In this document: one piece after another, positions 1 to 13,640 of the stretch
How positions within the stretch are numbered: the stretch's first letter is position 1
How the letters are laid out: each line of letters starts with the position of its first letter
Assembly (NCBI GenBank): GCA_023299895.1
Contig: JALZWI010000171.1
Span: 1 to 13,640, forward strand
Source of the DNA: Arenicella sp.
GTDB taxonomy: Bacteria; Pseudomonadota; Gammaproteobacteria; Arenicellales; Arenicellaceae
Direction of reading: 5' to 3'
Length of the DNA: 13,640 nt
Notes under the pieces: generated by a model
The model's input: the letters and a program-made list of their open reading frames with translations, nothing else
The model's database searches: none
What the model was told of the DNA's origin: nothing
Made by a program: the position numbers and the translations under genes

Positions 1-86
1 AAGCTCATCACGCGCGGCTTCGTCAACGCCCAAAAGTCCCGCCAATCAGCAGGGATATAATGGTCATGTGTCAAAGCCTGTTTCAT
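1..86 (-). CDS. cyoE: Protoheme IX farnesyltransferase (heme O synthase), N-terminal fragment
   Basis: Partial gene running off the left edge; only the first 28 residues are present. The translation contains WRDFWALTKPRVMS, which matches the N-terminal 'W..Y..LTKPRV' signature of CyoE/CtaB. This family transfers a farnesyl group from farnesyl diphosphate to heme b, making heme O for heme-copper oxidases in the inner membrane. The ATG at 86-84 has an AGGTG ribosome-binding site at 93-97. It lies downstream of the ctaD tail on the same strand, which fits its role in assembling that oxidase. The identification rests on a short but characteristic motif; the catalytic DxxxD motifs lie outside the window. 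Confidence 0.75.
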   Translation of the reverse strand, partial: MKQALTHDHYIPADWRDFWALTKPRVMS

Positions 87-181
87 TCAATACACCTGAT
101 GCAATTAATGGACCCGCAGGCCCATTAATATTATGGGGCAATAGTGCCCTTTTGATACGTCAACCTATTTACCTCTGGTCG
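87..181 (-). other. Intergenic spacer between the ctaD tail and cyoE, with inverted repeats
   Basis: The spacer carries an inverted repeat with arms TTAATGG (105-111) and CCATTAA (122-128), whose inner CC/GG bases could pair as well. An overlapping imperfect palindrome lies at about 122-137. No T-tract follows on either strand, so an intrinsic terminator is not supported. The first bases (about 166-178) repeat the end of the ctaD tail. The function of these repeats is unknown. Confidence 0.4.
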
Positions 182-346
182 TTATTTAACCTCTGGCAAT
201 GTTTCAAATTGGTGGAAAGGTGGTGGGCTAGACAATGTCCATTCTAGCGTTGTGGCACCCTCGCCCCAATAATTACCTTCGGCTTTTGGACCAAAGAATA
301 GAGAATAAAATACGTTGATGAAGAAGATCACAACGCCAACCGCCAT
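182..346 (-). pseudogene. ctaD: 3' remnant of cytochrome c oxidase subunit I
   Basis: The last 54 codons plus stop of an aa3-type oxidase subunit I. They comprise the final transmembrane helix (MAVGVVIFFINVFYSLFFG) and the conserved tail WGEGATTLEWTLSSPPP, followed by FHQFETLPEV. All catalytic parts (heme and copper ligand histidines, proton channels) are absent, so this piece cannot work alone. A complete ctaD would be expected elsewhere in an aerobic genome. That cyoE follows on the same strand suggests this is the authentic 3' end of an oxidase gene, not a random insertion. The remnant is in frame with the upstream permease. Confidence 0.85.
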
Positions 347-1471
347 GATGGCATAACCTAGCGATGCCACTTGGCGTGCTATTGATGTCAACTTATTACC
401 AACGATGCGATGACTGTAAGCAAGAAGTAAGGCTAATATAAGAGCCAATAGCGCTGTAATTACTGCAAGGCTAAAGGTGTTTATGATAAGCGTCCAAAAA
501 CTTGCTTCAAATATTTGAGTGTAGGTTAGTAATGACCAGACCAGTAGTTGCCAAACGGGAATAATGAACCCAATGAGTAAAGGAACACAACACAGTGAAA
601 AAGCAATAATTGCTTTCCAAATGCTGAGTTGTTTTCTAGTGTTAGTGTGTTTGTTGCCTTTAGTATGGTAGCGCGCACGTCGCCGAGATTGTTTTTCTAT
701 GACAGTCAAAATAATCACAAACGACAGAAGCATTAACGCCAACTGTGCAGCGCCATTAACGCTATCGAGTCCATACCAAGTACGAAATATGCCAGTGGTG
801 AAGGTATTAACGCCAAAATAGCTGACCGCACCAAAGTCTGCCAATGTTTCCATTAATACTAACGACATGCCGGCAATGATGGCCGGTCGAGCTATCGGTA
901 AGGAGATCTTGAAAAACGCTTTTTTACGTGAATAACCCATTAGGCGTACGACATCAGTATATTGCTTAGATTGTTCAAGAAATGACGCGCGTGCGAGCAA
1001 ATAAACATAAGGGTATAAAACAAATGACATAACAAATATAGCACCACCCATCGAGCGGATCTCTGGAAACCAATATTGTCCATAGCGTAAGTCATAGCTG
1101 TCACGAATAAATCCTTGTAACGGTCCAGCGATATCCAATAAGCCAGTATAAGAATAGGCGATGATATAGGTCGGCATGGCTAAAGGGAGCAGCAATGCCC
1201 AATTGAGAATTCGCACCCCAGGGAAATCATATTGACTGACCAACCAAGCACTGCCAACACCAATGCCAAATGTTAGAACAGCAACACCGATCACTAGTTT
1301 TAGTGAACTAACAATATAATCGGTTAAGACGGTACTGCTTAAATGCGCCCAAATTTGTTGGCTGTGATCGATATTAAAGCTGAGAACTAATAGGGTAATT
1401 ATTGGGAAAAATATTAGTCCAGCTGTAGCTGTACTAGCTAATTGCCAGGAAAAGTATTTTTGTTTAAGCAA
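182..1471 (-). CDS. Chimeric reading frame: truncated Fe(3+) ABC permease (FbpB) joined to the C-terminus of cytochrome c oxidase subunit I (CtaD)
   Basis: Residues 1-375 form a binding-protein-dependent permease of the FbpB/SfuB ferric iron type. Multiple membrane segments are visible, with the first EAA-loop at about 171-200 (DVVRLMGYSRKKAFFKISLP). The second half begins near 285 and reaches the usual 'ASLGYAI' element. At that point family members continue with 'PG' and several more helices including a second EAA loop. Here the frame continues as MAVGVVIFFINVFYS and WGEGATTLEWTLSSPPP, the unmistakable CtaD C-terminus. FbpB proteins are usually over 500 residues, so about a quarter is missing and the transporter is probably inactive. 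The start is TTG at 1471; an in-frame TAG lies nine codons upstream, and AGAGGA precedes it at a long spacing. It follows fbpA by 27 bases. No fbpC ATPase gene follows. It could be a genuine fusion scar or an assembly artefact. Confidence 0.85.
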   Translation of the reverse strand: MLKQKYFSWQLASTATAGLIFFPIITLLVLSFNIDHSQQIWAHLSSTVLTDYIVSSLKLVIGVAVLTFGIGVGSAWLVSQYDFPGVRILNWALLLPLAMPTYIIAYSYTGLLDIAGPLQGFIRDSYDLRYGQYWFPEIRSMGGAIFVMSFVLYPYVYLLARASFLEQSKQYTDVVRLMGYSRKKAFFKISLPIARPAIIAGMSLVLMETLADFGAVSYFGVNTFTTGIFRTWYGLDSVNGAAQLALMLLSFVIILTVIEKQSRRRARYHTKGNKHTNTRKQLSIWKAIIAFSLCCVPLLIGFIIPVWQLLVWSLLTYTQIFEASFWTLIINTFSLAVITALLALILALLLAYSHRIVGNKLTSIARQVASLGYAIMAVGVVIFFINVFYSLFFGPKAEGNYWGEGATTLEWTLSSPPPFHQFETLPEVK

Positions 1472-1498
1472 AATGACTGCGGTCTATCCTCTGGCTGC

Positions 1499-2539
1499 TT
1501 ACTTCCAGCCAGCACGGTCCATCAAACGCACTGCGGCAGCATTATTTTCGCCTAGTTGGTCTAGTTGAAGTTGGTCTGCTTTAAATTCTCCCCAAGCGGC
1601 TAGTATTTTATTCACCTTAATGTCTTGTTTAACAGGGTATTCAAAATTAACGTCGGCATATAATTGTTGCGCCGTGTCTGATGCTAAGTATTCCAATAAT
1701 TTAATTGCATTGTCTTTATTGGGCGCTGTTTTAACAATACCGGCACCGCTGACGTTAACATGCGCTCCACGATTTTCTTGGTTTGGCCAGATTACAGATA
1801 ATTCTTGACCAGCCTTGTGATCGGCAGCATTGTTTTTGTCTGCCAACATCTGAGCAAGATAATAAGTGTTGGCAATTGCAATATCACATTGGCCAGCCGC
1901 TGAAGCACGAATTTGATCACGATCGCCGCCTTGCGGGGAACGGGCAAAGTTGGCAACAAGTCCAGTTACCCAGTCCTCTGTTGCTTGCTCACCGACTGTT
2001 GCGATCATTGCAGCAACCAGTGATTGGTTGTAAATATTATTCGACGAGCGGATGCAAATTTTCCCTTGATAAATAGGGTTGGTTAAGTCTTCGTAGGTAT
2101 TTGGCTTTTCAATCGTTGAATAATTAACCAGCATAATCGGCCTAACGCGAACAGACAGGCCAAACCATTGTGAATCTGTGTCACGGTATTTGGCCGGGAT
2201 ATTTTCATTCAATACACTTGAATCGACTGCGTTAAATATGTCTGCTTGTTTGGCTCGCCATAAACGGCCCGCATCAGTGGTGAGTAATACATCCGCTGGA
2301 CTATTGATTCCTTCACTTTGAATCCGCTTTAATAGAGCGTCGGCATTACTGCTGATGATATTGACTTGAATGCCTGTATCTTGCGTAAACGCATCCAGTA
2401 AGGGTTTAATTAATGCCTCTTGTCTGGCTGAATATAGGTTTACCTCGCCGTTAGCCATACAGGTTGACGTGGTTAGTAGCGTGCTTATTAATAGGGCGAA
2501 GACGGTCAAAGCTTTTAACATAATAGGGATTATTTTCAT
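1499..2539 (-). CDS. fbpA: Ferric iron ABC transporter, periplasmic substrate-binding protein
   Basis: A periplasmic iron-binding protein of the FbpA/FutA class that delivers Fe(3+) to an inner-membrane ABC permease. The ATG at 2539 gives 346 residues. An upstream in-frame ATG at 2584 lies inside the Fur box and -10 element, so it cannot be in the transcript. A Sec signal peptide is evident (hydrophobic ALTVFALLISTLL, likely cut after CMA near residue 29). The mature protein starts with the family-typical VNLYSARQEAL. The paired tyrosines known to bind iron in FbpA are seen in IANTYYLAQ (Y226-Y227). Length is normal. No good Shine-Dalgarno precedes 2539, and ATG 2521 is a possible alternative. 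It is cotranscribed with the permease gene 27 bases downstream. Iron repression through Fur is inferred from the operator. Confidence 0.9.
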   Translation of the reverse strand: MKIIPIMLKALTVFALLISTLLTTSTCMANGEVNLYSARQEALIKPLLDAFTQDTGIQVNIISSNADALLKRIQSEGINSPADVLLTTDAGRLWRAKQADIFNAVDSSVLNENIPAKYRDTDSQWFGLSVRVRPIMLVNYSTIEKPNTYEDLTNPIYQGKICIRSSNNIYNQSLVAAMIATVGEQATEDWVTGLVANFARSPQGGDRDQIRASAAGQCDIAIANTYYLAQMLADKNNAADHKAGQELSVIWPNQENRGAHVNVSGAGIVKTAPNKDNAIKLLEYLASDTAQQLYADVNFEYPVKQDIKVNKILAAWGEFKADQLQLDQLGENNAAAVRLMDRAGWK

Positions 2540-2569
2540 TATCTTGGGGAAATGGATGTCAATAAGAAT

Positions 2570-2588
2570 GATAATGATTCGCATTATA
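2570..2588 (-). promoter_or_regulatory. Fur box overlapping the fbpA promoter
   Basis: On the plus strand the 19-mer GATAATGATTCGCATTATA matches the Fur consensus GATAATGATAATCATTATC at 15 of 19 positions, with the left nine perfect. It covers the -10 element and presumed start point of the fbpA promoter, the usual layout for repression by Fe(2+)-Fur. The match is seen directly; Fur binding is inferred. Confidence 0.8.
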
Positions 2589-2610
2589 GATTGATAGGGT
2601 TAAATTGCAA
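2583..2610 (-). promoter_or_regulatory. Sigma-70-type promoter for fbpA-fbpB'
   Basis: On the minus strand, TTGCAA (2610-2605) is a -35 element with 4 of 6 consensus matches. A 16-base spacer separates it from a perfect TATAAT -10 element (2588-2583). Transcription would begin near 2576, leaving a leader of about 37 bases before the ATG at 2539. Confidence 0.7.
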
Positions 2611-2664
2611 AACCTTTATGTGTAAAAAACACAGACTAACTATCAGATTTGGTTGCGATTGCAT

Positions 2665-2670
2665 TATAAT
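2665..2670 (+). promoter_or_regulatory. Candidate -10 element for gcvH
   Basis: A perfect TATAAT stands about 90 bases before gcvH in the fbpA/gcvH divergent region. No convincing -35 hexamer lies 16-18 bases upstream. The surrounding GTATTATAATGC context is nearly symmetric, so it could also serve the minus strand. A weak call. Confidence 0.35.
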
Positions 2671-2695
2671 ACTGTCCTTAGTGAAACGGCGCACT

Positions 2696-2709
2696 ATTCA
2701 GCGCTGAAT
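2696..2709. repeat. Perfect 14-base palindrome in the gcvH leader
   Basis: ATTCAGCGCTGAAT is a perfect dyad with no loop, followed by a T-rich stretch (2710-2720). It lies between the candidate -10 and the gcvH ribosome-binding site, so it could be an operator. No regulator can be named. Confidence 0.4.
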
Positions 2710-2761
2710 CTTATTTTTCTTAAATTAGACAGTTGATCACAATACCAGACCGGAGAAAAAC

Positions 2762-3148
2762 ATGAGTGATACCCCAGATAATTTGGCTTATGCCGCCTCA
2801 CATGAATGGGCACGAAAATTAGACGATGATGTGATTGAAGTCGGGATCAGTGATTTTGCTCAAGCAGCACTGGGCGATGTTGTCTATGTTGAGTTACCAG
2901 AAGTAGGGCAACAAGTAACAGCAACTCAGGAATGTTGTGCCGTTGAATCGGTTAAAGCTGCATCTGATATTTATGCGCCTGTTAGCGGTGAAATAGTCGC
3001 TGTAAATGAAGCACTCGAGGACGAGCCTGAATTACTCAACGAGTCGCCTTATGAAGGCGGTTGGATGTTTCGAATTAAAGCTTCTAATGCCTCAGAGTTA
3101 GATAATTTACTAACAGCGCAAGCGTACCTTGCCCAAGCAGAAGATTAG
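2762..3148 (+). CDS. gcvH: Glycine cleavage system H protein
   Basis: The small lipoyl-carrying shuttle of the glycine cleavage complex. It passes the aminomethyl group of glycine between the P, T and L proteins in the cytoplasm. At 128 residues it is family-typical. The N-terminus has the diagnostic HEWAR, the core has [23 protein letters not shown], and the lipoylation motif is [12 protein letters not shown] with Lys65 as the attachment site. The C-terminal part includes [14 protein letters not shown] strong GGAG (2752-2755) sits six bases before the ATG. Neither gcvT nor gcvP is adjacent. A kinase gene follows after 55 bases on the same strand. The key lysine and fold motifs are intact, so it is probably functional. 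An alternative role as a lipoyl carrier in lipoate metabolism cannot be excluded. Confidence 0.95.
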
Positions 3149-3203
3149 ATAAACTTAGTTTTTTTAAATCAATTCAATACCAAACCCTTAAACAGGAGTC
3201 TAC

Positions 3204-4145
3204 GTGAAAACTTTAATCGCGGGTTCAATGGCCTACGACACTATTTTTGTGTTCGAAGATAAATTTCAAAACCATATTTTGCCAGAGCAAACGCATATGT
3301 TGAATGTGTCATTCTTTGCTCCGACTATGCGCCGCTATCAAGGTGGTTGTGCGGGTAACATCGCCTATAATTTAAAATTACTCGGTGGTGAACCAATTAT
3401 TATGGCGGCGGTTGGTCAGGATTTTGCACCTTATGCTAAGCGTCTAGCTGAGTGTAATATTTCGGATGAATATATTAAGGTCATCGAAGATGAGTACACT
3501 GCTCAGGCGTTTATTATTAATGATATTGATAACAATCAAGTCAACGCGTTTCATCCTGGTGCAATGAATTTCGCACACCAAAACAAAGTGAGTGATGTCG
3601 CTAATGTTGAATTGGGTATTGTCTCCCCGGATGGTCGAGATGCAATGATTGAACACGCAACCCAATTTAATCAAGCCGGAATCCCATTTTTCTTTGATCC
3701 AGGTCAGGGTTTACCAATGTTTGGTGGAGAAGAATTGATACAGTTTTGTGAACAAGCGAACTACCTAATCTTAAATGATTATGAAAGTCATATGCTAATG
3801 GATAAATCAGGCCTTAAGCTTGATGATGTCGCAAGCCTAGTGGACGTTTTAGTTGTCACTAAAGGCGCTGAAGGCTCGGTTGTTTATGTTGATGGAGAGA
3901 CTATTGACGTTGCTGCTGCACCGATCAGTGCGGCAAAAGACCCAACTGGTTGTGGGGATTCATATCGAGCTGGCATGATGTTTGGTTTGAGTAAAGGCTG
4001 CGATTGGAAAACCAATGCTCAGTTAGGTGCTTTATGCGGTGCCATTAAAGTAGAAAGTGTTGGTACTCAACAACACAGTTTTACGCCAGATCAATTTTCT
4101 GAGCGTTACCAAACAGCATTTGGTGAGTCTTTGAGTGTCTTTTAA
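3204..4145 (+). CDS. PfkB-family carbohydrate/nucleoside kinase (adenosine-kinase-like)
   Basis: A 313-residue ribokinase-superfamily enzyme that phosphorylates a sugar or nucleoside hydroxyl with ATP in the cytoplasm. The first signature region is RRYQGGCAGNIAYNLKLLGG (44-62). The NxxE element is NDYE (191-194), and VTKG lies at 218-221. The C-terminal signature is DPTGCGDSYRAG (246-257), which forms the anion hole and supplies the catalytic base Asp252. Proteins of this type are often labelled adenosine kinase, but substrate specificity cannot be read from the sequence, so no symbol is given. The start is GTG at 3204 with AGGAG about five bases upstream. Length is normal. It follows gcvH and is probably cotranscribed. 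The link between the two is not explained by any pathway I can name with confidence. Confidence 0.88.
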   Translation: MKTLIAGSMAYDTIFVFEDKFQNHILPEQTHMLNVSFFAPTMRRYQGGCAGNIAYNLKLLGGEPIIMAAVGQDFAPYAKRLAECNISDEYIKVIEDEYTAQAFIINDIDNNQVNAFHPGAMNFAHQNKVSDVANVELGIVSPDGRDAMIEHATQFNQAGIPFFFDPGQGLPMFGGEELIQFCEQANYLILNDYESHMLMDKSGLKLDDVASLVDVLVVTKGAEGSVVYVDGETIDVAAAPISAAKDPTGCGDSYRAGMMFGLSKGCDWKTNAQLGALCGAIKVESVGTQQHSFTPDQFSERYQTAFGESLSVF

Positions 4146-4200
4146 TTTAGAAATTAACAAGTAAAGGCTAATTTTTAAACCTCTAGTGTGTGTAAACCCC

Positions 4201-5019
4201 TTAATTTGTAAAGAATAGAGGCCGTGATTGATAGTCAGCGGGTAGGGCTATTTCAGCAATCTCGAGCAAGTCAATCGCATTAACCACAAAGCTGACCGGT
4301 GGCGTATCAGGATCAACTTGAGTTTGGTTACTGTACACCACTAAACCTGATAAATCGATGCCGTCAAGATTTGGTATAGATTGACCATATTGTTCTGCGA
4401 ATGGCTGCGCTTGTTTCGCAAGCAAAAGAAAAAACGCTTGGGCATTTAATAGCGTTTCATAGTCTTGGTTGGTCAGCGGTGTTGAATTTGCGTTGGTAAT
4501 ACAGACACGGCCAAGCTCTATATTGTCTTCAAGCACTGAATTTTCTTGGCAGGTAATACCGCGAAATTGTTGTTCAGCGAGCGATGTAAGTTGTAGCGCA
4601 GTGCTTGGTTGTGATTCTGGTACGTCGATACCAAAACCACGCATCAGACCTGCGAGGGTATCACGTTGTTCACTCGGCATGGCATCTAGTACACCAGTTG
4701 CGGCTTGAATCGTTTTGCCAAATTGTTCAATATTCGCTTTAGTAAGTGGCGATACAGTTCTCTCGTTATGATCGATAATGTAAAGAGTCTGTTCCGATGT
4801 ATCAAAGATTACTTCGTTCACAGTTATATCTTGAATATAGGCGGTATTTTCAGGGTCATTTGATTTGACTAACAGACGGCCATTTTTAACCAGTAAGGTA
4901 GCATTACCTGATCCGGTACTTAATGTAATCGTGCTGTCAGCGAAGCTGACTGAACTGAACGATAACAAAGAGCATGTCATTGCAAAAATAAATAGGGGTT
5001 TATTTGTGAGTTTTGGCAT
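4201..5019 (-). CDS. Exported protein of unknown function
   Basis: I do not recognise this 272-residue protein with confidence. A Sec signal peptide is clear: KLTNK, then hydrophobic PLFIFAMTCSLLSFSSVSFA, with likely cleavage after SFA near residue 27. The mature N-terminal half looks beta-rich (ITLSTGSGNATLLVKNGRLLVK). It is followed by LYIIDHNERTVSPLTKANIEQFG and a helical stretch LDAMPSEQRDTLAGLMRGFG. That order loosely resembles secreted DUF4412-type proteins, in which a 'YyiDhk.kty' strand precedes a methionine- and glutamine-rich helix; this is an impression, not an established match. Two cysteines (about 157 and 173, in GITCQEN and GRVCITN) could form a disulfide in the periplasm. It is divergent from lgt across 100 bases and convergent with the kinase gene. 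The ATG at 5019 has no clear Shine-Dalgarno. Confidence 0.75.
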   Translation of the reverse strand: MPKLTNKPLFIFAMTCSLLSFSSVSFADSTITLSTGSGNATLLVKNGRLLVKSNDPENTAYIQDITVNEVIFDTSEQTLYIIDHNERTVSPLTKANIEQFGKTIQAATGVLDAMPSEQRDTLAGLMRGFGIDVPESQPSTALQLTSLAEQQFRGITCQENSVLEDNIELGRVCITNANSTPLTNQDYETLLNAQAFFLLLAKQAQPFAEQYGQSIPNLDGIDLSGLVVYSNQTQVDPDTPPVSFVVNAIDLLEIAEIALPADYQSRPLFFTN

Positions 5020-5064
5020 AAGTAAACAAATGTTTAATTGGTGAGTAAAATCAATCAGTCAGGC

Positions 5065-5070
5065 TATAAT
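5065..5070 (+). promoter_or_regulatory. Candidate -10 element for the lgt operon
   Basis: A perfect TATAAT lies 50 bases before the lgt start, in the divergent gap with the exported-protein gene. The -35 position (about 5042-5047) is poor, so the call rests mostly on the -10 and its placement. Confidence 0.4.
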
Positions 5071-5119
5071 GTATCTTTATTTAACCTTAATGCAAGCCAA
5101 GAAGTGTTAATTCGAAACA

Positions 5120-5902
5120 ATGTTAGTACACCCAAATTTTGATCCTGTCGCACTACAGTTAGGCCCTATCGCCATCCATTGGTATGGTTTAATGTATGTG
5201 TTTGGTTTTTTAGGTGTTTATATATATGGTAGTTACCGTATAAGAAAATATTCTCGACTAAGTGAGTCAGGTTGGAGCAAAGATTTAATCAGCGACCTTA
5301 TTTTTTATGGTGCTCTGGGTGCTGTTTTCGGCGGGCGGCTTGGTTATGTATTATTTTATAAACCTGCTGAGTACCTAGCTAATCCGATCGAAATTTTGAT
5401 GATTAACCAAGGAGGTATGTCATTTCACGGTGGTTTACTCGGTGTTATTGTTGCCATGGCTTGGTTTGCGAAGACTCATAAATTCAGTATTTATGAGATT
5501 GGTGATTTTGTTGCACCACTAGCGCCTATTGGTTTATTTTTTGGTCGAATGGGTAATTTTATTAACCAAGAGCTATGGGGCAAACAGACCGACCTGCCGT
5601 GGGGCATGATTTTTACTAATGGTGACGCGGCAGCAAGGCACCCGTCAATGTTATATGAAGCGTTACTTGAAGGCGTTGTGTTATTGTTAGTAATCAGTTG
5701 GGTAGCTCGTAAACCAAGAACTGCGGGCACTCTGGCTGGGTTATTTTTAGTTGGCTACGCTATAGCTCGAATATTAGTTGAATTTGTGCGCGTACCTGAT
5801 GAGCATCTGAACTATTTGTTATTTGATTGGGTGACGATGGGGCATCTTTTGAGTTTGCCAATGTTCGCTTATGGTCTATATTTAATGCTTAGACGCATTT
5901 AA
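5120..5902 (+). CDS. lgt: Phosphatidylglycerol:prolipoprotein diacylglyceryl transferase
   Basis: The first enzyme of lipoprotein maturation. It moves diacylglycerol from phosphatidylglycerol to the lipobox cysteine at the inner membrane. At 260 residues and about seven membrane segments it is a complete member. Visible motifs are HPNFDPVALQLGP at the N-terminus, HWYGLMYVFGF (20-30), GGRLGYVLFY (71-80) and the Lgt signature GRMGNFINQELWG (142-154). H103 in SFHGG and R143, N146 and E151 match essential E. coli Lgt residues. R217 and E221 in RILVE fit the later essential Arg/Glu pair. The ATG at 5120 begins the family-typical N-terminus, with only a weak upstream purine stretch. It heads a plus-strand run with the DUF4124 gene and lnt. 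Confidence 0.97.
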   Translation: MLVHPNFDPVALQLGPIAIHWYGLMYVFGFLGVYIYGSYRIRKYSRLSESGWSKDLISDLIFYGALGAVFGGRLGYVLFYKPAEYLANPIEILMINQGGMSFHGGLLGVIVAMAWFAKTHKFSIYEIGDFVAPLAPIGLFFGRMGNFINQELWGKQTDLPWGMIFTNGDAAARHPSMLYEALLEGVVLLLVISWVARKPRTAGTLAGLFLVGYAIARILVEFVRVPDEHLNYLLFDWVTMGHLLSLPMFAYGLYLMLRRI

Positions 5903-5938
5903 CCTGTTAACTATTTTTTGATAATTAAGAGATTTAGT

Positions 5939-6553
5939 ATGAAACATCATCAACTACTATCATCAATTACGCTAAGTTTATGCGCGATATTTTTTTCTAC
6001 ACCTAGCCTCTCTGTGCAAAAATGCCAGGATGCCGATGGCAAATGGCATTATGGTGATGTGGCCGTTTCTGGTTGTGAGAACTCCAATGTGACCACTTTA
6101 AATGATCGTGGGTTTGTGGTTGATCAATTGGCCGCGCCGAAAACCGAAGAACAATTACTTGCTGATCAACAACAACTAGAAAAAGAAGAAGCAGAGAGAA
6201 TTCGTTTAAAAGTCGAAGAAGATGAGAAAATTAGAGTTCTGAGTATTTATGAAACGGAAGCGGATATAGACCGACAGCGTGATAACCAACTCAGTTCAGT
6301 CGATGGTAATATTTTAGTACATGAGGCTTATCTCAAAAGCATGGCGGTTCGTATTGAGCGATTAAATAGAGATCAGGCTGAGGTAAAATCAGAAAGAATC
6401 AAAGAGCAGTTACAAACAGAAATGGATCAAGCCAACGGCCGAGTAGAAAAATCTACAAAAGAACTTGCCGAATTGCGTGCGCAGAAAGTTGAAATTATGG
6501 AAAAATTCAAAAAAGAAAAAGAAATCTATTTAGCGCTTAAAAGCCCAAAATAA
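5939..6553 (+). CDS. Secreted DUF4124-domain protein with charged coiled-coil C-terminus
   Basis: A 204-residue exported protein. The ATG at 5939 is preferred over a TTG at 5918 because AAGAGA lies at proper spacing before it and it opens a normal signal peptide (MKHHQLLSSITLSLCAIFF, cut around residue 25-28). The mature protein starts with KCQDADGKWHYGDVAVSGC, matching the short DUF4124 module ('Y.C.d.dGk..y.d.p'), here with two cysteines that could pair. Residues from about 70 to the end are rich in Glu, Lys, Gln and Arg with heptad-like spacing, predicting a long helical or coiled-coil region. The molecular function of DUF4124 proteins is not established. It lies 36 bases after lgt and 34 bases before lnt, so it is almost certainly cotranscribed with both. 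It lacks a lipobox and so is not itself a predicted lipoprotein. Confidence 0.85.
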   Translation: MKHHQLLSSITLSLCAIFFSTPSLSVQKCQDADGKWHYGDVAVSGCENSNVTTLNDRGFVVDQLAAPKTEEQLLADQQQLEKEEAERIRLKVEEDEKIRVLSIYETEADIDRQRDNQLSSVDGNILVHEAYLKSMAVRIERLNRDQAEVKSERIKEQLQTEMDQANGRVEKSTKELAELRAQKVEIMEKFKKEKEIYLALKSPK

Positions 6554-6587
6554 TTCGTCTTGTTGCTAAGCTCTTAGACTCTTATTT

Positions 6588-8045
6588 ATGGTTTTAATTT
6601 TATGCTTTGTTGCAGGTTTAGCAACGGTATTCGCATTTGAACCATTTGGCTTAGGTGTTATTGCCTTCTTTAGTCTGGCGATATTGTGTTATTTTTTACA
6701 AGCCGCAGTCACTAAAAAACACGCCTTCTTATATGGCCTAGCCTTTGGATATGGCATGTTTGGTGTAGGTGTATCCTGGGTCTATGTGTCGCTAAGTACC
6801 TATGGTGGCATGCCGCTATGGATGGGCAGTATTGCTGTTATTGGGTTTGCCGGTCTGTTATCAGTTTTTATAGGATTTGCGGGATTTTTGAGTGTGTTAC
6901 TGGTACCTAAGCCCAGTATCGCTCGCTTAAGTGTCATACCATTTTGTTGGATTATTTTTGAGTGGCTAAAAGGGTGGGTATTGACGGGCTTTCCATGGCT
7001 GGAAATTGGTTACACCCAAACACCAACATGGTTATTTGCGTTGGCGCCAATTGGTGGCGTTTATTTAATTAGTTTTTTAGTTTTAGTGATTGGCTGTTTA
7101 CTCGTTGCCGCTTTTATTGAACCTCGTCGTTGGCACTCTTGGCTGACGATGCTTGGAATAAGTATTTTGTTATGGCCGTTGAATCAAATTCAATGGTCTC
7201 AAGATGATGGCGAGCCGATTAATGTTGGTCTCGTGCAAGCCAATATACCTATTGAGTTAAAGTGGTTAGCCGATCAACGTGACCAGCATATTAATCAATT
7301 TGTAATTCAGAGCCAGCAGTTACACGAAAAAACGCCGATTGATCTGTTTGTTTGGCCAGAAACAGCGTTACCGCTTTACCGCCAACAAACCGACAAGGCT
7401 TTTTGGCAAGCAATCGTTCCGCCAGGTTCGGCTGTGTTAACGGGATTAATGGATCAAGTAGCAGATAATGAGTTTTATAATGCCGCCGTTTTATCTTGTG
7501 CAGGACAACAACAAGTTTATCGAAAGCGACACCTCGTACCGTTTGGTGAGTACTTACCAATGCGATTTTTATTCAATTGGGTGTTGAATTATTTACAATT
7601 GCCAATGAGTGATTTTTCAGCATGGCAAGGCTCTCAACCTTTGGAGTGCCCAGGAAATATTAACCTTAGTTTATCGATTTGCTATGAAGATGCTTTTGGA
7701 TCTGAATGGCGCAATCATATTGCAGGTGCGACATTATTGGTTAATATTAGTGAAGATGCTTGGTTTGGAGATTCATTGGCCCCTCATCAGCGATTGCAAA
7801 TGGCACAAATGCGATCGCGTGAATTTGCCCGACCGTTAATACGTAGTGCTAATACAGGGCCTTCGGTGGTGATTGATCAGCACGGTGTGGTATTGGCGTC
7901 AACGGGTCAGTTTGTCGAGCAGTCGCTCAATTATCTTGTGCAGCCTCAAACAGGCGATACATGGTATCAACGGTTTGGTAATTGGATAATTTTAGTGTCG
8001 TTTGGGCTAGTGTTGGTACTGCTAGTCAATAGAGTGCGTAGATGA
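6588..8045 (+). CDS. lnt: Apolipoprotein N-acyltransferase
   Basis: The last enzyme of lipoprotein maturation. It adds an acyl chain from a phospholipid to the amino group of the diacylglyceryl cysteine. It has a membrane-embedded N-terminal half and a periplasmic nitrilase-like domain. Several membrane helices span about 1-200, including FEPFGLGVIAF and GWVLTGFPWLEIGY. The catalytic triad is complete: E258 in FVWPETALP, K313 in YRKRHLVPFGEYLP and C365 in SLSICYEDAF, equivalent to E. coli E267, K335 and C387. A final helix (about 465-480) anchors the end. At 485 residues it is slightly short but complete. The ATG at 6588 is the only reasonable start (in-frame TAA at 6567-6569) and has no clear Shine-Dalgarno, so translation may depend on the upstream genes. 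It ends five bases from the convergent gspC stop. Confidence 0.96.
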   Translation: MVLILCFVAGLATVFAFEPFGLGVIAFFSLAILCYFLQAAVTKKHAFLYGLAFGYGMFGVGVSWVYVSLSTYGGMPLWMGSIAVIGFAGLLSVFIGFAGFLSVLLVPKPSIARLSVIPFCWIIFEWLKGWVLTGFPWLEIGYTQTPTWLFALAPIGGVYLISFLVLVIGCLLVAAFIEPRRWHSWLTMLGISILLWPLNQIQWSQDDGEPINVGLVQANIPIELKWLADQRDQHINQFVIQSQQLHEKTPIDLFVWPETALPLYRQQTDKAFWQAIVPPGSAVLTGLMDQVADNEFYNAAVLSCAGQQQVYRKRHLVPFGEYLPMRFLFNWVLNYLQLPMSDFSAWQGSQPLECPGNINLSLSICYEDAFGSEWRNHIAGATLLVNISEDAWFGDSLAPHQRLQMAQMRSREFARPLIRSANTGPSVVIDQHGVVLASTGQFVEQSLNYLVQPQTGDTWYQRFGNWIILVSFGLVLVLLVNRVRR

Positions 8046-8050
8046 TTTTT

Positions 8051-8746
8051 TTACAGCTCACCTATTTTTTCTAGAGCGCGATCCAGCCCAGAAAAATTAG
8101 GTCTGCGTACTCGCTTAGTCTCAGCGCTATCTATTTCCTGCTCGACTATGTTCCTTGAAGCAGTTTGGCGGGTATTGGGTGCTGGGTTTTGATATTCTTC
8201 AAGTGCACTTTCGGCAGGGTCATTATCGTAACTAACTATGATTCGATTGTTCGAATCAGTGAGTTTGTTTAACGGTAGACTTTCAAGTGCACCATTACGA
8301 TTCAAAATAACTTCTGCATCGCGAATTTCTTCTACCTTAGCACCAGCGCCCTCAATTTCTTCATCAACTGAATAGAGCTCTGACGCTTTTTTGCCAGACA
8401 TAATAATCGCGCGGCCAGCGGAATTGTCAGATGACCAAAGTACGCCCACTAAGGTTAGATCTAGTGTCGTTTTTGGTGCAACTTTAGCCACTGGCGCGGG
8501 TGTTGGGTTACCAAACAAATTGGCTGCAACGATATCATTTATTCGATAAGTCGGTCTGCTTGCGGTTCTGATAGGTGAAATTGTTTGTTCTTGGTAGTTT
8601 GTTTGTTTAATTTTTGTTTGTTGCCAAGCGGTCCAGCCCACTGACATAAAAACTAAGCCAAGCACTAGTATTGCTAGTAACCAGACTAGTTTAACGCTGT
8701 GTTTGTTCCACAGGCGGTTGTTGGCAATTATACTTAAAAAACTCAT
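8051..8746 (-). CDS. gspC: Type II secretion system inner-membrane protein GspC, PDZ-less form
   Basis: GspC links the inner-membrane platform of the type II secretion system to the outer-membrane secretin GspD. The 231-residue protein has a short cytoplasmic N-terminus and one membrane helix (about 18-40). The periplasmic homology region spans about 68-160: YRINDIVAANLFGNP, then LDLTLVGVLWSSDNSAGRAII, then SVDEEIEGAGAKVEEIRDAEVIL. This HR domain is the part known to contact GspD. Many GspC proteins continue with a PDZ or coiled-coil domain. Here only a polar, proline-containing tail of about 70 residues follows, with no PDZ motif. No gspD-N genes are nearby. The ATG at 8746 has AGGT upstream at a long spacing. 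It could be cotranscribed after mgtE (66-base gap). Confidence 0.85.
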   Translation of the reverse strand: MSFLSIIANNRLWNKHSVKLVWLLAILVLGLVFMSVGWTAWQQTKIKQTNYQEQTISPIRTASRPTYRINDIVAANLFGNPTPAPVAKVAPKTTLDLTLVGVLWSSDNSAGRAIIMSGKKASELYSVDEEIEGAGAKVEEIRDAEVILNRNGALESLPLNKLTDSNNRIIVSYDNDPAESALEEYQNPAPNTRQTASRNIVEQEIDSAETKRVRRPNFSGLDRALEKIGEL

Positions 8747-8798
8747 ATAGATAGTTTACCTGAAATTACTTAAGTTTCGCAGCAGTATTACGCGATAT

Positions 8799-8812
8799 AA
8801 ATCAGCTGATTT
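8799..8812. repeat. Perfect 14-base palindrome between mgtE and gspC
   Basis: AAATCAGCTGATTT abuts the mgtE stop codon and precedes gspC by about 50 bases. It has no loop and no clean T-tract, so it is a poor terminator; an operator or chance dyad are alternatives. Confidence 0.35.
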
Positions 8813-10153
8813 TTATAGCAAAAGCAGCGTTGCCAGTCCTAATACTGAGAAATAGCCAACCACATCGGTAACTGTGGTCAGGGCAACACCACCCGCCAAG
8901 GCAGGGTCGATATCCATTTTATCTAGAATTACAGGGATACATACGCCTGCGATAGCGCCCATCACTAAATTAGCAACCATAGCGCAGGCGATGACTAAAC
9001 CCAGTTGTACATTTTGATACCAAAGAGCCGCTATGAGCGCTATCACGCATGCCCAAAGCAAGCCATTTAATACACCTACCATAGACTCCTTTATCAACAC
9101 AGTTTTAACATTACCTGATGAAATAGTGCCCGTACTCATACCGCGGATAACCAAGGTTAAGGTCTGCGTGCCGGCGTTGCCTCCCATGCTGGCAACAATT
9201 GGCATAAGTACCGCGAGCGCGACTAACTGTTGAATCGATCCCTCAAAGCGACCAATTACCCACGATCCAATTAATGCCGTGATTAAATTAATACCAAGCC
9301 AAACGGCACGATTAGCGGAGGTTTTGGTAACGGGTGCAAAAATATCAGTTTCGTGTTTTAGGCCCGCTGTGGCTAGAATGTCCTGCTCGGCCTGATCGCG
9401 AATAACGTCGACCACATCGTCAATAGTGATGCGGCCAATCAGCTGTCTTTGGTTATTAATAACAGGCGCAGAAACCAAGTCATAATCAGTAAAGGCTTTG
9501 GCTACGTCTTCTTCACTGTCGAGGCATTCGAAAATCACTGGATTTTCCAATGCATGATTCAGGGCTAAATCAATTACTGGCGCTGTAATTAGGCTTTCTA
9601 TAGGTAGTATTCCAGTTAACTGATTCGCTCGATCAACCAGATAGACTACATCGGTCTGACGTGGCAAGCTGCCATTAAGCCTTAAAAAACGTAATGCAAC
9701 TTCGATTGAGCAGTTATCCCTGACGACTGTTGCATCTAGGTTCATCAGGCCGCCAGCACTGTCCTCGGGGTAGGATAAAACTTCTCCAAGAGATTTCCGG
9801 GTTTGTGTATCGACCGCATGCAAGATGTCAGCCAGTATTCTTTCGGGTAAGTCTGGGATTAAGTCAGCGATATCATCAATATCAAGTTGCTTAATCGAAT
9901 CAACAATTTGTTCATCATCGATTTCATTAATCAAGTCTCGAAACACACCTTCGCTTAGCTCAGTGAGTACCTTACCTGCTGCTTGTTCGGGTATATGTTG
10001 CCATGCGGCCGGCCGATTGGCTGGTGTGAGTTGCTCAAGAGCATCTGCGATGTCAGCAGGATGCGCTCGTTCAAATGCATCACTCACTGCGAGGGTATCG
10101 TCTGCTGCAAGCAGTTCAACAATATTTTCTATTGTGGTATCGGTTTGTGACAC
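8813..10153 (-). CDS. mgtE: Magnesium transporter/channel MgtE
   Basis: A homodimeric inner-membrane Mg(2+) channel whose cytosolic domains sense magnesium and close the pore. The 446 residues show the full architecture. The acidic helical N domain (about 1-125) has repeats such as HPADIADALEQL and IDDIADLIPDLP. A CBS pair spans about 135-255 (SYPEDSAGGLMN to GRITIDDVVDVI), and the connecting helix runs to about 275. The five-helix channel follows, with the signature GGNAGTQTLTLVIRG (324-338). The pore region DPALAGGVALTTVTDVVGYF carries D430, corresponding to the selectivity aspartate of Thermus MgtE. The start is GTG at 10153; an in-frame TAA lies just upstream and there is no strong Shine-Dalgarno. 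It follows enzyme I with a 144-base gap. Linkage of mgtE to rapZ/PTS genes is known in other proteobacteria. Confidence 0.95.
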   Translation of the reverse strand: MSQTDTTIENIVELLAADDTLAVSDAFERAHPADIADALEQLTPANRPAAWQHIPEQAAGKVLTELSEGVFRDLINEIDDEQIVDSIKQLDIDDIADLIPDLPERILADILHAVDTQTRKSLGEVLSYPEDSAGGLMNLDATVVRDNCSIEVALRFLRLNGSLPRQTDVVYLVDRANQLTGILPIESLITAPVIDLALNHALENPVIFECLDSEEDVAKAFTDYDLVSAPVINNQRQLIGRITIDDVVDVIRDQAEQDILATAGLKHETDIFAPVTKTSANRAVWLGINLITALIGSWVIGRFEGSIQQLVALAVLMPIVASMGGNAGTQTLTLVIRGMSTGTISSGNVKTVLIKESMVGVLNGLLWACVIALIAALWYQNVQLGLVIACAMVANLVMGAIAGVCIPVILDKMDIDPALAGGVALTTVTDVVGYFSVLGLATLLLL

Positions 10154-10241
10154 GGTTTAGTTCGGCGATTATTTTCAGGGACTAGTCAGGGATTAATACG
10201 GCACTAGAAAGTTTAGTGGGAAATCCAATTAAATGTTACTT

Positions 10242-10247
10242 ATTATA
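10242..10247 (-). promoter_or_regulatory. Candidate -10 element for mgtE
   Basis: A TATAAT on the minus strand lies about 90 bases before the mgtE GTG, in the enzyme I-mgtE gap. The -35 region (TGCTTA at a 16-base spacer) is poor. It suggests mgtE may have its own promoter besides read-through. Confidence 0.3.
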
Positions 10248-10275
10248 GCCAGCAAGTCCAATCTAAGCATTATTT

Positions 10276-10298
10276 ATGATGTCCTTTTATTACATCAT
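10276..10298 (-). other. Hairpin just after the enzyme I stop codon
   Basis: Perfect seven-base arms ATGATGT (10276-10282) and ACATCAT (10292-10298) flank a nine-base loop and overlap the last base of the stop codon. No U-tract follows in the direction of transcription and the stem is AT-rich. It may therefore be an mRNA-stabilising or weak attenuating hairpin, not a standard terminator. Confidence 0.35.
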
Positions 10299-12034
10299 TA
10301 AAGTTTATTCAGTCGCGTCAATCGGTCTCGGGCGCGGCTAGGGTTGCTTGCGGATAATATTTTATTTAATTGGTACTTGAGCTTCTTTGTGTCGGTAGTG
10401 AGTATACGCTCTTTAACATCAAGCAAATAATTCGCGTCCATACTGTAAGTGGTTAAGCCAAGACCAAGCAATAGGCGAGTAAATTGTACATTGCCAGCCA
10501 TCTCGCCGCACAGCGAAACTGGGATGTTGGCTTTATTACCAGCGCTGATGACTTGTTTAATCAAGCGTAGTACAGCCGGATGACTAGGGTCGTATAGATA
10601 ATTCACAGCATCATCAACACGGTCAATCGCCAATGTATACTGAATTAGATCGTTGGTGCCAATCGACAGAAAATCTAAATTACAGGCAAAAATATCGGCC
10701 ATAATTGCCGCAGCTGGCACTTCAATCATGCCGCCGACTTGAATTCTATTATCAAATAAAATTCCTTTTTGTCGAAGCTCTTGTTTGGTTTGTTTAACAA
10801 TATTCAAGACCTGAGTGATTTCATCGATATTGCTGACCATCGGTATCATAATCGATACTTTTCCGTGCACTGAAGCGCGCAAGATCGCACGCAACTGGGG
10901 TTGGAATAAATTCATATTATTCAAACACAGCCTGACTCCGCGAAGGCCTAATGGCGATTCACTGGATTTTTTATGTTGGAAATCGAAGTCTAAGCGCTTA
11001 TCACCACCAATATCGAGCGTTCTGATAACAATAGGCTTGTTGCCCAAAGCCGAGATGATGCGTTTATATGACTGATATTGCTCATTTTCTGATGGCGCTG
11101 CGTCTCGATTCATGAACAGATACTCTGTTCGATATAAACCAATACCTTCTGCGTTGACACGTTTTACTTCGCGCAACTCTACTGCCGATTCGATATTGGC
11201 GAGTAATTTTATTCGTTTGCCATCGATGGTCTTAGTAGTTTTCTTAATCAGTGATTGCAGGTCTTTTTGGCGTTCACGAATCCGACGCTGCATTTTACGA
11301 TACTGACGCAATACTTTTTCATCAGGGTTGATGAGAATAACGCCGCGCTTACCGTCGACGACTAATAAATCATCATCATCGATATAGCGAGTTGCGCCAT
11401 GTAAGCCAACCACTGCAGGTAGTTTTAAACTACGTGCAACAATAGCAGTATGCGAAATTTGACTGCCTAAATCGGTCACAAAGGCGGCTATTTTACGCTC
11501 TTTGATAAACATGGTTTCAGCTGGCGAAAGGTCTTTGCTGATAATAATGCGACCACTGAGGTCCTCATCATTAAATTCATCGAGCTCATGGGTAACAATA
11601 CCTAAGAGCGTGCGTAATAAACGGTTGGTTATATGCTGAACATCCGCTTTCTTATTCCGCAAATAGGGGTTTTCCATTTGCTCAAAAACACGTATTAAAT
11701 TATTAGCCTGAACTTTTAATGCATGCTCAGCATTAACACGTTCAGATTTAATAATTTTAATTGATTCGTCGACCAATAGCGGGTCGCGTAACATCATCTT
11801 ATGTGCCTCAATAAATGCGGCACTTTCTTTGGGCGCATCTTTGGGCAGCATTCGAAGTATTTTTTTATAATGCTGTTCAGTTTCTAAAACAGCTTTATTA
11901 AACCGTTTAACCTCAGCTTTGATCTCTTGTTCTTGAAGCGTAATGCTGGTTATTTCAATTTCATTATTTTTCAGAACATAGGCTTTGCCAATAGCAATAC
12001 CGCGGCCAATTCCGGACCCGAAAAGGCTAAACAC
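10298..12034 (-). CDS. ptsI: PEP-protein phosphotransferase, enzyme I (short form without GAF domain)
   Basis: A cytoplasmic enzyme that autophosphorylates from phosphoenolpyruvate and passes the phosphate to HPr. The 578 residues begin with the swivelling domain (GSGIGRGIAIGKAYVL) and an HPr-binding helical insert (about 35-145). The phosphohistidine site is TDLGSQISHTAIVARS, with His195. The PEP-binding barrel has EGIGLYRTEYLFM, IRTLDIGGDK (337-346), the metal ligand E438 in GGMIEVPAAA, GTNDLIQYT (459-467) and C509 in SLCGEMAG. There is no N-terminal GAF domain, so it is built like sugar-type enzyme I, not the glutamine-sensing PtsP. Its genetic setting (ptsN, rapZ) is nevertheless PTS-Ntr. 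The start is GTG at 12034, two bases after the HPr stop. GAGGAAGAG at the end of the HPr gene is its ribosome-binding site, so the pair is translationally coupled. Confidence 0.95.
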   Translation of the reverse strand: MFSLFGSGIGRGIAIGKAYVLKNNEIEITSITLQEQEIKAEVKRFNKAVLETEQHYKKILRMLPKDAPKESAAFIEAHKMMLRDPLLVDESIKIIKSERVNAEHALKVQANNLIRVFEQMENPYLRNKKADVQHITNRLLRTLLGIVTHELDEFNDEDLSGRIIISKDLSPAETMFIKERKIAAFVTDLGSQISHTAIVARSLKLPAVVGLHGATRYIDDDDLLVVDGKRGVILINPDEKVLRQYRKMQRRIRERQKDLQSLIKKTTKTIDGKRIKLLANIESAVELREVKRVNAEGIGLYRTEYLFMNRDAAPSENEQYQSYKRIISALGNKPIVIRTLDIGGDKRLDFDFQHKKSSESPLGLRGVRLCLNNMNLFQPQLRAILRASVHGKVSIMIPMVSNIDEITQVLNIVKQTKQELRQKGILFDNRIQVGGMIEVPAAAIMADIFACNLDFLSIGTNDLIQYTLAIDRVDDAVNYLYDPSHPAVLRLIKQVISAGNKANIPVSLCGEMAGNVQFTRLLLGLGLTTYSMDANYLLDVKERILTTDTKKLKYQLNKILSASNPSRARDRLTRLNKL

Positions 12035-12036
12035 AG

Positions 12037-12306
12037 TTACTCTTCCTCACCAAAATAATCGTTAATTAGTTCAGTGAGTGCCGTTAACGCAGCTTGCTCA
12101 TCGCTACCATCACACTGAATATCAATTAAGCTACCTTGTGCTGCTGCTAGCATCATGACGGACATGATGCTTTTTGCATCTGCTTGTTGACTGCCATAAC
12201 TGATCGTCACTTTACTGCCAAATGCGGCCGCGGTATTAACCAGTTTGGCAGCGGCGCGTGCGTGCAAACCGAGTTTATTGATGATTTGTATTTGTTGTTC
12301 AATCAT
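12037..12306 (-). CDS. HPr-family phosphocarrier protein (NPr-like)
   Basis: A small cytoplasmic phosphocarrier of 89 residues that takes phosphate from enzyme I and passes it to the EIIA-type PtsN. The active site is NKLGLHARAAAKLV with phosphohistidine His15 and the conserved Arg17. The second motif, DAKSIMSVMMLAAAQGS, has a serine at position 46. In organisms with HPr kinase that serine is the regulatory phosphorylation site; no hprK is visible here. The ATG at 12306 has only a weak GGTT upstream. It lies 76 bases after rapZ and two bases before enzyme I. Either npr or ptsH could be used as a symbol, so none is given; its position next to rapZ and ptsN favours the NPr role. Confidence 0.93.
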   Translation of the reverse strand: MIEQQIQIINKLGLHARAAAKLVNTAAAFGSKVTISYGSQQADAKSIMSVMMLAAAQGSLIDIQCDGSDEQAALTALTELINDYFGEEE

Positions 12307-12339
12307 TTTTTAACCATGAAATTACTCTTGAGGACTTTG

Positions 12340-12353
12340 GCTTTATATAAAGC
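12340..12353. repeat. Perfect 14-base palindrome between rapZ and the HPr gene
   Basis: GCTTTATATAAAGC is a perfect dyad in the 76-base gap. It is too AT-rich and loop-less for a strong terminator. Its role is unknown; chance is possible at this base composition. Confidence 0.35.
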
Positions 12354-12382
12354 AGTTTAAGATAGTGTGCATAATTTAGCAT

Positions 12383-13258
12383 TTATAGTGCAAATTCGCG
12401 ATGCCGAACTTGAGTTTGAATCTGATTGTTACTAGAAAAATGAGTTTGTAGTTTATTGGCCAAAAATACTGAGCGATGTTTGCCACCGGTGCAGCCAATG
12501 GCAACCGTAATGTAGTTACGGTTGTCATCAATAAAGCAGGGTAGCCAATGCTCAATAAAATTTCGGATATGTTCATACATATCGATGCACATGGGCTGCT
12601 TAGATAAAAATTCGTTAACTGCGGAATCCAGTCCGGTCAATTCTTTTAACTCAGAGTTCCAATAGGGGTTAGGCAGGCAGCGCACATCAAATACAAAGTC
12701 AGCATCACCGGGGTTGCCATACTTAAAACCAAAAGAATGGAACAGCAGGGTAAGAGATTTTTCTCCCATCGTCGCTGCTTGATTGCGAATGATTGAACGA
12801 AGCTCATGCGGTGTTCTATCTGAAGTGTTGATATGTTGATGTGCAATATCAGATATATGGGCAAGCAGTTTACGTTCTTTAGCGATTGCTTCGACTAGTG
12901 ATGTGTCTTTATCTGATAAAGGGTGTTTGCGTCGAGTCTCGCTGAAACGCTTTAGTAGTGTCGTGTCATCAGCGTCAAGAAAAACAATATGAAATTCAAT
13001 ATTAAATGAACTCAGGCTGTCGAAACTATTTTTTAGATCACCTATAAAATCTTGATTACGTGAGTCAATACTGATCGCACAATTTTGCATCGAAGCATTG
13101 TCTGCGTCATTCGCATTTAACCGAGCAGCCATCTCAGGCATTAATGAGGCCGGGAGGTTGTCAATGCAGTAGAACCCCAAATCTTCCAAGACCTGCAAGG
13201 CAATGGTTTTACCTGAGCCAGAAGTACCGCTGACAATAAAAAATTGAGCAGAACTCAT
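12383..13258 (-). CDS. rapZ: RapZ-family nucleotide-binding protein (RNase adapter)
   Basis: A cytoplasmic P-loop protein of the YvcJ/RapZ family. In enterobacteria RapZ binds small RNAs controlling glucosamine-6-phosphate synthase and guides RNase E. In other phyla the role is less clear, so the RNase-adapter role here is inferred from the family. The 291 residues start with FFIVSGTSGSGKT (Walker A, about 11-18), then LEDLGFYCIDNLP and a second element near VFLDADDTTLLKRFSETRRKHPL. The C-terminal domain has FSFGFKYGNPGDADFVFDVR-like family residues (LFHSFGFKYG) and the diagnostic GCTGGKHRSVFLA near the end. The ATG at 13258 is family-typical; its ribosome-binding site is weak. It lies 27 bases after ptsN, consistent with one operon. 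Confidence 0.95.
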   Translation of the reverse strand: MSSAQFFIVSGTSGSGKTIALQVLEDLGFYCIDNLPASLMPEMAARLNANDADNASMQNCAISIDSRNQDFIGDLKNSFDSLSSFNIEFHIVFLDADDTTLLKRFSETRRKHPLSDKDTSLVEAIAKERKLLAHISDIAHQHINTSDRTPHELRSIIRNQAATMGEKSLTLLFHSFGFKYGNPGDADFVFDVRCLPNPYWNSELKELTGLDSAVNEFLSKQPMCIDMYEHIRNFIEHWLPCFIDDNRNYITVAIGCTGGKHRSVFLANKLQTHFSSNNQIQTQVRHREFAL

Positions 13259-13285
13259 AAATGATTCAAGTCACTCTTCGAGCAC

Positions 13286-13640
13286 TTAGCGCGAATCTAC
13301 ATCTGTTGACCAAGTGGTGATAAGGTCTATCACTTCCAGGTTGGTTTTGGCAGATGATAATTGCGCCTTCTTTTCATTATCGGACATTAATCGCGCTATG
13401 GCCGCGAGCAGTCCTAAATGCTGAGATGTTGCCTCGCTAGGAACCAATAGACCAAAAGCAACATCAACCGGTTGCCGATCAACGCTGTGGTAATCAACGG
13501 CTTCACTTAAAGTTATGATTGCGATTATTGCAGTGTGTGCTTTATCGCTGCGACTGTGCGGGAGTGCGACACCATTACCGATACCCGTATTGCCTAATTT
13601 TTCGCGCTCCAATAAACAATGATAAATATCTTTTTCTTTA
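13286..13640 (-). CDS. ptsN: PTS IIA-like nitrogen regulatory protein, C-terminal part
   Basis: A partial gene whose 5' end lies beyond the right edge; 117 residues are visible. The frame stays open to the edge (KEKDIYHCLLEREKL), so the TTG near 13612 is internal. The EIIA(Ntr) active site is NTGIGNGVALPHSRS with the phosphohistidine (visible residue 28). It is followed by VDVAFGLLVPSEATSQHLGLLAAIARL, typical of PtsN. PtsN is the terminal phosphate acceptor of the PTS-Ntr relay and controls partners such as potassium transport in other bacteria. In many proteobacteria it stands between rpoN/hpf and rapZ; the rapZ side is present here. Confidence 0.94.
   Translation of the reverse strand, partial: KEKDIYHCLLEREKLGNTGIGNGVALPHSRSDKAHTAIIAIITLSEAVDYHSVDRQPVDVAFGLLVPSEATSQHLGLLAAIARLMSDNEKKAQLSSAKTNLEVIDLITTWSTDVDSR

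Follow-up and report, generated by a model that had tools for sequence, protein, structure and literature searches.

The in-frame join between an FbpB-type iron(III) permease gene and the end of ctaD in the window (the whole stretch of DNA analysed here, 13,640 nucleotides) is almost certainly an interspecies chimera from library preparation, amplification or assembly rather than a gene carried by a living cell, because the few hundred bases at one end of the window belong to another bacterial class. Protein and nucleotide comparisons assign the two sides of the join to a gammaproteobacterial and an alphaproteobacterial block, respectively, with different closest taxa on either side. A preliminary description of this DNA had considered a deletion, a true chimeric gene, and an assembly or whole-genome-amplification artefact; the diverging origin of the two blocks supports the last of these.

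The fused reading frame and its surroundings

The list of open reading frames in the window includes a 429-aa frame on the minus strand (1471–182). Its proposed composition of FbpB for 375 residues followed by the last 54 residues of CtaD was borne out by profile searches, and all 429 codons stay in frame across the join, as had been stated. The ABC-permease models TIGR03262 and TIGR01581 match residues 20–393 and 38–253, respectively, and CtaD_CoxA matches residues 362–428 (profile positions 440–504 of 504, E 8e-11). The frame is permease-like up to residue 375, and its last 54 residues are attributed to CtaD. As the last 65 positions of CtaD_CoxA are the only ones matched, the full heme-copper oxidase core is absent; the 63-aa CtaD piece gave no match in Pfam. 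Nor does the frame correspond to a full-length permease of about 540 residues, permease similarity ending at residues 375–387.

All parts of this end of the window lie on the minus strand. The 5' part of the FbpB-type iron(III) ABC permease gene (368–1471, residues 1–368), assigned by the ABC permease models and belonging to the gammaproteobacterial block, is cut by the join. It leads into an ambiguous crossover stretch of 21 nt (347–367) that encodes ASLGYAI (residues 369–375), a word that certain FbpB and CtaD proteins have in common. The last 54 codons and the stop of an alphaproteobacterial ctaD (cytochrome c oxidase subunit I) follow at 182–346, identified by CtaD_CoxA and by 95% nucleotide identity to a genome denoted G833. 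The ctaD–cyoE spacer (87–181) and the start of cyoE (ctaB, heme o synthase; 1–86, with its ATG at 86 and cut by the window end) match the spacer and cyoE start of G833. On the other side, an fbpA-like binding-protein gene (1499–2584), recognized by models and colinear with locus L217, adjoins fbpB upstream within the gammaproteobacterial block. The neighbours suit their own loci, in agreement with the preliminary description, with the binding-protein gene upstream and the cyoE start past the stop codon.

The fused protein of the window (P0001) represents a cluster of two member sequences with one listed contig of 13,640 bases. Because this contig matches the window in size, the window seems to be the whole contig, with the join probably some 350 bases from one of its ends. 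The longest contig of another JGI permease, P0093 (60% identical), also measures exactly 13640 bases, probably by coincidence.

Taxonomic origin of the two blocks

A protein search with the whole 429-aa frame as query returned 7992 relatives among 8000 scored candidates, and the best 120 were listed. P0001 being the protein of the window itself, the other 119 permeases listed (291–560 aa, two of them below 486 aa) cover at most 90% of the query. Among the matches listed, the nearest (P0002–P0009) are 536–548 aa long and 71–75% identical, with 73–75% for P0002–P0006. Four of the 119 carry Arenicella names (P0048, P0055, P0057 and P0084, with P0048 from Arenicella xantha); other labels include an Acidiferrobacterales MAG (P0009) and a Cryomorphaceae MAG (P0045). 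In the class of G002, 65 of 369 sampled genomes matched FbpB at E ≤ 1e-95, the best being G657 (64% identity), which is probably Arenicella xantha. An earlier collection of 80 loci (41–53% identity) served only as a source of genomes for comparison. As the order of L069 (8 genomes) is distant on the permease side (39–43%), the order of G657 was used for genome comparison. An FbpB match was found in 51 of 60 genomes of this order, and none of the 52 listed matches extends beyond residue 387 of 429.

At the nucleotide level, 12 aligned pieces of 65–77% identity place window positions 714–13639 in colinear order with contig C3 of G657, and DNA matches to other relatives start at about position 665 (L174). 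For the stretch between 368 and about 665, a gammaproteobacterial origin is indicated by protein matches to gammaproteobacterial genomes. The region 2752–13639 shares its gene order with the putative Arenicella xantha contig and holds ordinary genes: models recognize gcvH, a PfkB-family-like kinase, lgt, mgtE and a ptsI-type gene, and inspection of the reading frames by eye adds likely lnt, gspC-like, HPr, rapZ and ptsN genes.

On the CtaD side, 7966 proteins passed a search with the last 64 residues as query, and the best 120 were again listed. The 119 listed relatives other than the window's own protein all carry PF00115, which we take to be the heme-copper oxidase domain, and the tail is 94% identical to P0121 over 64 aa. 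Where names are given, they are mostly those of Sphingomonadales genera, e.g. Parasphingorhabdus and Sphingorhabdus; other labels include a Nitratireductor MAG (P0229) and a “hydrothermal vent metagenome” record (P0195). Judging from these names, the order of G833 is probably Sphingomonadales (Alphaproteobacteria). In G833, all 63 residues of the CtaD tail align, at 97% identity; its ctaD is intact (552 aa), with cyoE next, and the translations of the neighbouring genes presumably give the order ctaC-ctaD-cyoE-ctaG-ctaE. Window positions 1–367 are identical to this locus at 347 of 367 positions (95%) with one gap, spanning the ctaD end, the spacer and the cyoE start. An identity of 95% to a real ctaD–cyoE locus over 367 columns places the CtaD part of the frame far beyond chance. 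Among the best 14 matches shown, the next best by E-value after the two G833 loci was L149 (70% over 368 columns), and shorter pieces reach 80% over 102 columns.

The CtaD tail was matched at E 1e-26 in 77 of 246 genomes of the order of G031, G833 among them, and a 56-aa tail at E 0.001 in 313 of 385 sampled genomes of the class of G009, a Rhodospirillaceae-titled MAG (best 83%). In the class of G002, the tail was matched at E 1e-8 in 61 of 369 genomes (best E 3.5e-12, listed identities at most 58%). Four of the eight genomes in the order of G001 gave tail matches of 61–64% over 33–35 residues, far below 97% over 63, and 53 of the 60 genomes in the order of G657 gave matches of 34–54%, some of which may be related oxidases. 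When the tail was searched in 12 genomes (8 matched), alphaproteobacterial-titled records yielded longer matches at E 1e-13 to 1e-17, and the others E 1e-5 to 1e-8. In the plasmid collection, 78 records match the tail (best 69%; 26 Rhizobium, 10 Paraburkholderia), to be read as an early pointer only. The G+C content is 0.46 for positions 1–367, 0.41 for 368–1471, 0.42 for the whole window and 0.458 for the 5.5-kb G833 locus; on its own, base composition is weak evidence for a chimera.

Switch point and occurrence of the join

The match to G833 ends at window position 367, at the start of ASLGYAI on the minus strand, and the two blocks meet within 347–367. The crossover, previously placed at 341–352, is thus to be moved to this stretch (residues 369–375). 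Of the 119 permease relatives listed, 4 contain ASLGYAI, as do 13 of the 119 CtaD relatives listed; for ASLGYA, the respective counts are 10 and 13. Across 84 pairs of proteins (12 permeases by 7 CtaD proteins, hand-picked from the 238 listed relatives), the only 7-residue words common to both families were the mutually overlapping ASLGYAI, IASLGYA and QIASLGY, and among words of 6 residues, three more are common to both. Past ASLGYAI, the local matches of FbpB relatives continue for up to 12 residues. Judged on relatives of the parents, the switch is abrupt and falls on a stretch common to both. The notion that short similarity guided the join holds in so far as a shared word exists, but this word is ASLGYAI rather than the later “AVGV”. 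Since the switch lies inside a shared coding word, the frame is kept automatically, and the open frame is therefore no sign of selection.

The join was absent from the related proteins and genomes searched. Among 239 listed proteins, P0001 alone matches both halves: the CtaD tail occurs in none of the 119 listed permease relatives and the permease part in none of the 119 listed CtaD relatives (in each case the best 120 of about 8000). Comparison with related genomes, as proposed earlier, likewise argues against a fusion, as fbpB and ctaD stand apart and no joined fbpB–ctaD was found among the matches listed for the 60 genomes of the order of G657. For the six genomes in which FbpB is matched best, the listed CtaD-tail matches, read by eye, are on other contigs, except in G752, where one lies on the contig of FbpB at a distance of about 333 kb.

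Origin of the join

We suggest that a contig of gammaproteobacterial DNA, extending outward through fbpB, was erroneously prolonged into the ctaD–cyoE locus of another genome. The error would have occurred within the ASLGYAI-coding sequence, where the two genes share at most about 21 nt, and the frame would survive since both genes spell this word in the same frame. The ctaD–cyoE piece would stem from an unrelated sphingomonad that was presumably present in the same sample. Since 21 nt is a short overlap for many assemblers to make a join from k-mers alone, a chimeric library molecule may be needed. The comparisons show the differing taxonomic origins of the blocks, the switch position and the shared word; a laboratory or computational origin, and any choice between the two, is what we infer from this pattern. 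Multiple displacement amplification is reported to tend toward chimeric rearrangements (PMC1855051). The window resembles interspecies chimeric metagenome contigs in that two taxonomic origins meet abruptly at a short shared sequence, and in that the join, known from one listed contig, is apparently near the contig end.

It is improbable that the join records a real and recent horizontal transfer, whereby fbpB of an Arenicella-like gammaproteobacterium would have taken up the end of ctaD together with cyoE from a sphingomonad, truncating the permease. The retained donor-like order and spacer would be expected of a real insert too, and the shared coding word of about 21 nt could act as microhomology for illegitimate recombination. 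Still, the join is seen on one listed contig only, none of the 119 permease relatives listed has the CtaD tail, and visual inspection of the window's reading frames brought no conspicuous mobile-element gene to light. Moreover, the join is situated about 350 bases from the window end, hence the far side of a putative insert is out of view.

The previously considered deletion, joining two loci on the same strand of a single genome, would agree with the common strand and frame and with flanks that each suit their own locus. It is contradicted by an fbpB block of gammaproteobacterial and ctaD–cyoE DNA of alphaproteobacterial affiliation, i.e. a piece from another class at 95% nucleotide identity to G833. 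The low identity of CtaD-tail matches in the gammaproteobacterial order (34–54% in 53 of 60 genomes) and their location in the six best-FbpB genomes, on other contigs or about 333 kb away (G752), also speak against such an event, which we regard as vanishingly unlikely. That the chimera is a functional protein in its own right deserves next to no credence despite the open 429-codon frame, as about 165 of the last permease residues are missing (compare 536–548 aa in P0002–P0009), 54 of 552 CtaD residues are left, the in-frame join is explained by the shared word, and there is no second example among the listed proteins. The true chimeric gene envisaged earlier finds no counterpart among the listed relatives of either half (0 of 119 in both cases), and a conserved fusion protein is unsupported, P0001 being the only one of 239 listed proteins that joins both halves.

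The closest known counterparts of the two parts are full-length proteins. Residues 1–375 align with FbpB-type iron(III) ABC permeases at 73–75% identity (P0002–P0006), from which the frame of the window differs by the loss of about 165 last residues. The last 63 residues are 97% identical to the aa3-type CtaD in G833, probably of Sphingomonadales, and cyoE comes next, whereas nearly all of the 552-residue protein is missing from the window. A chimeric contig can thus be the source of an in-frame “fusion gene” whose two parts are both easily recognised. Where the parents share a short coding word, an in-frame join comes for free, and an open frame is no evidence of a real fusion. The first ~367 bases of the window are unfit for taxonomy, fusion catalogues and the inference of gene transfer.
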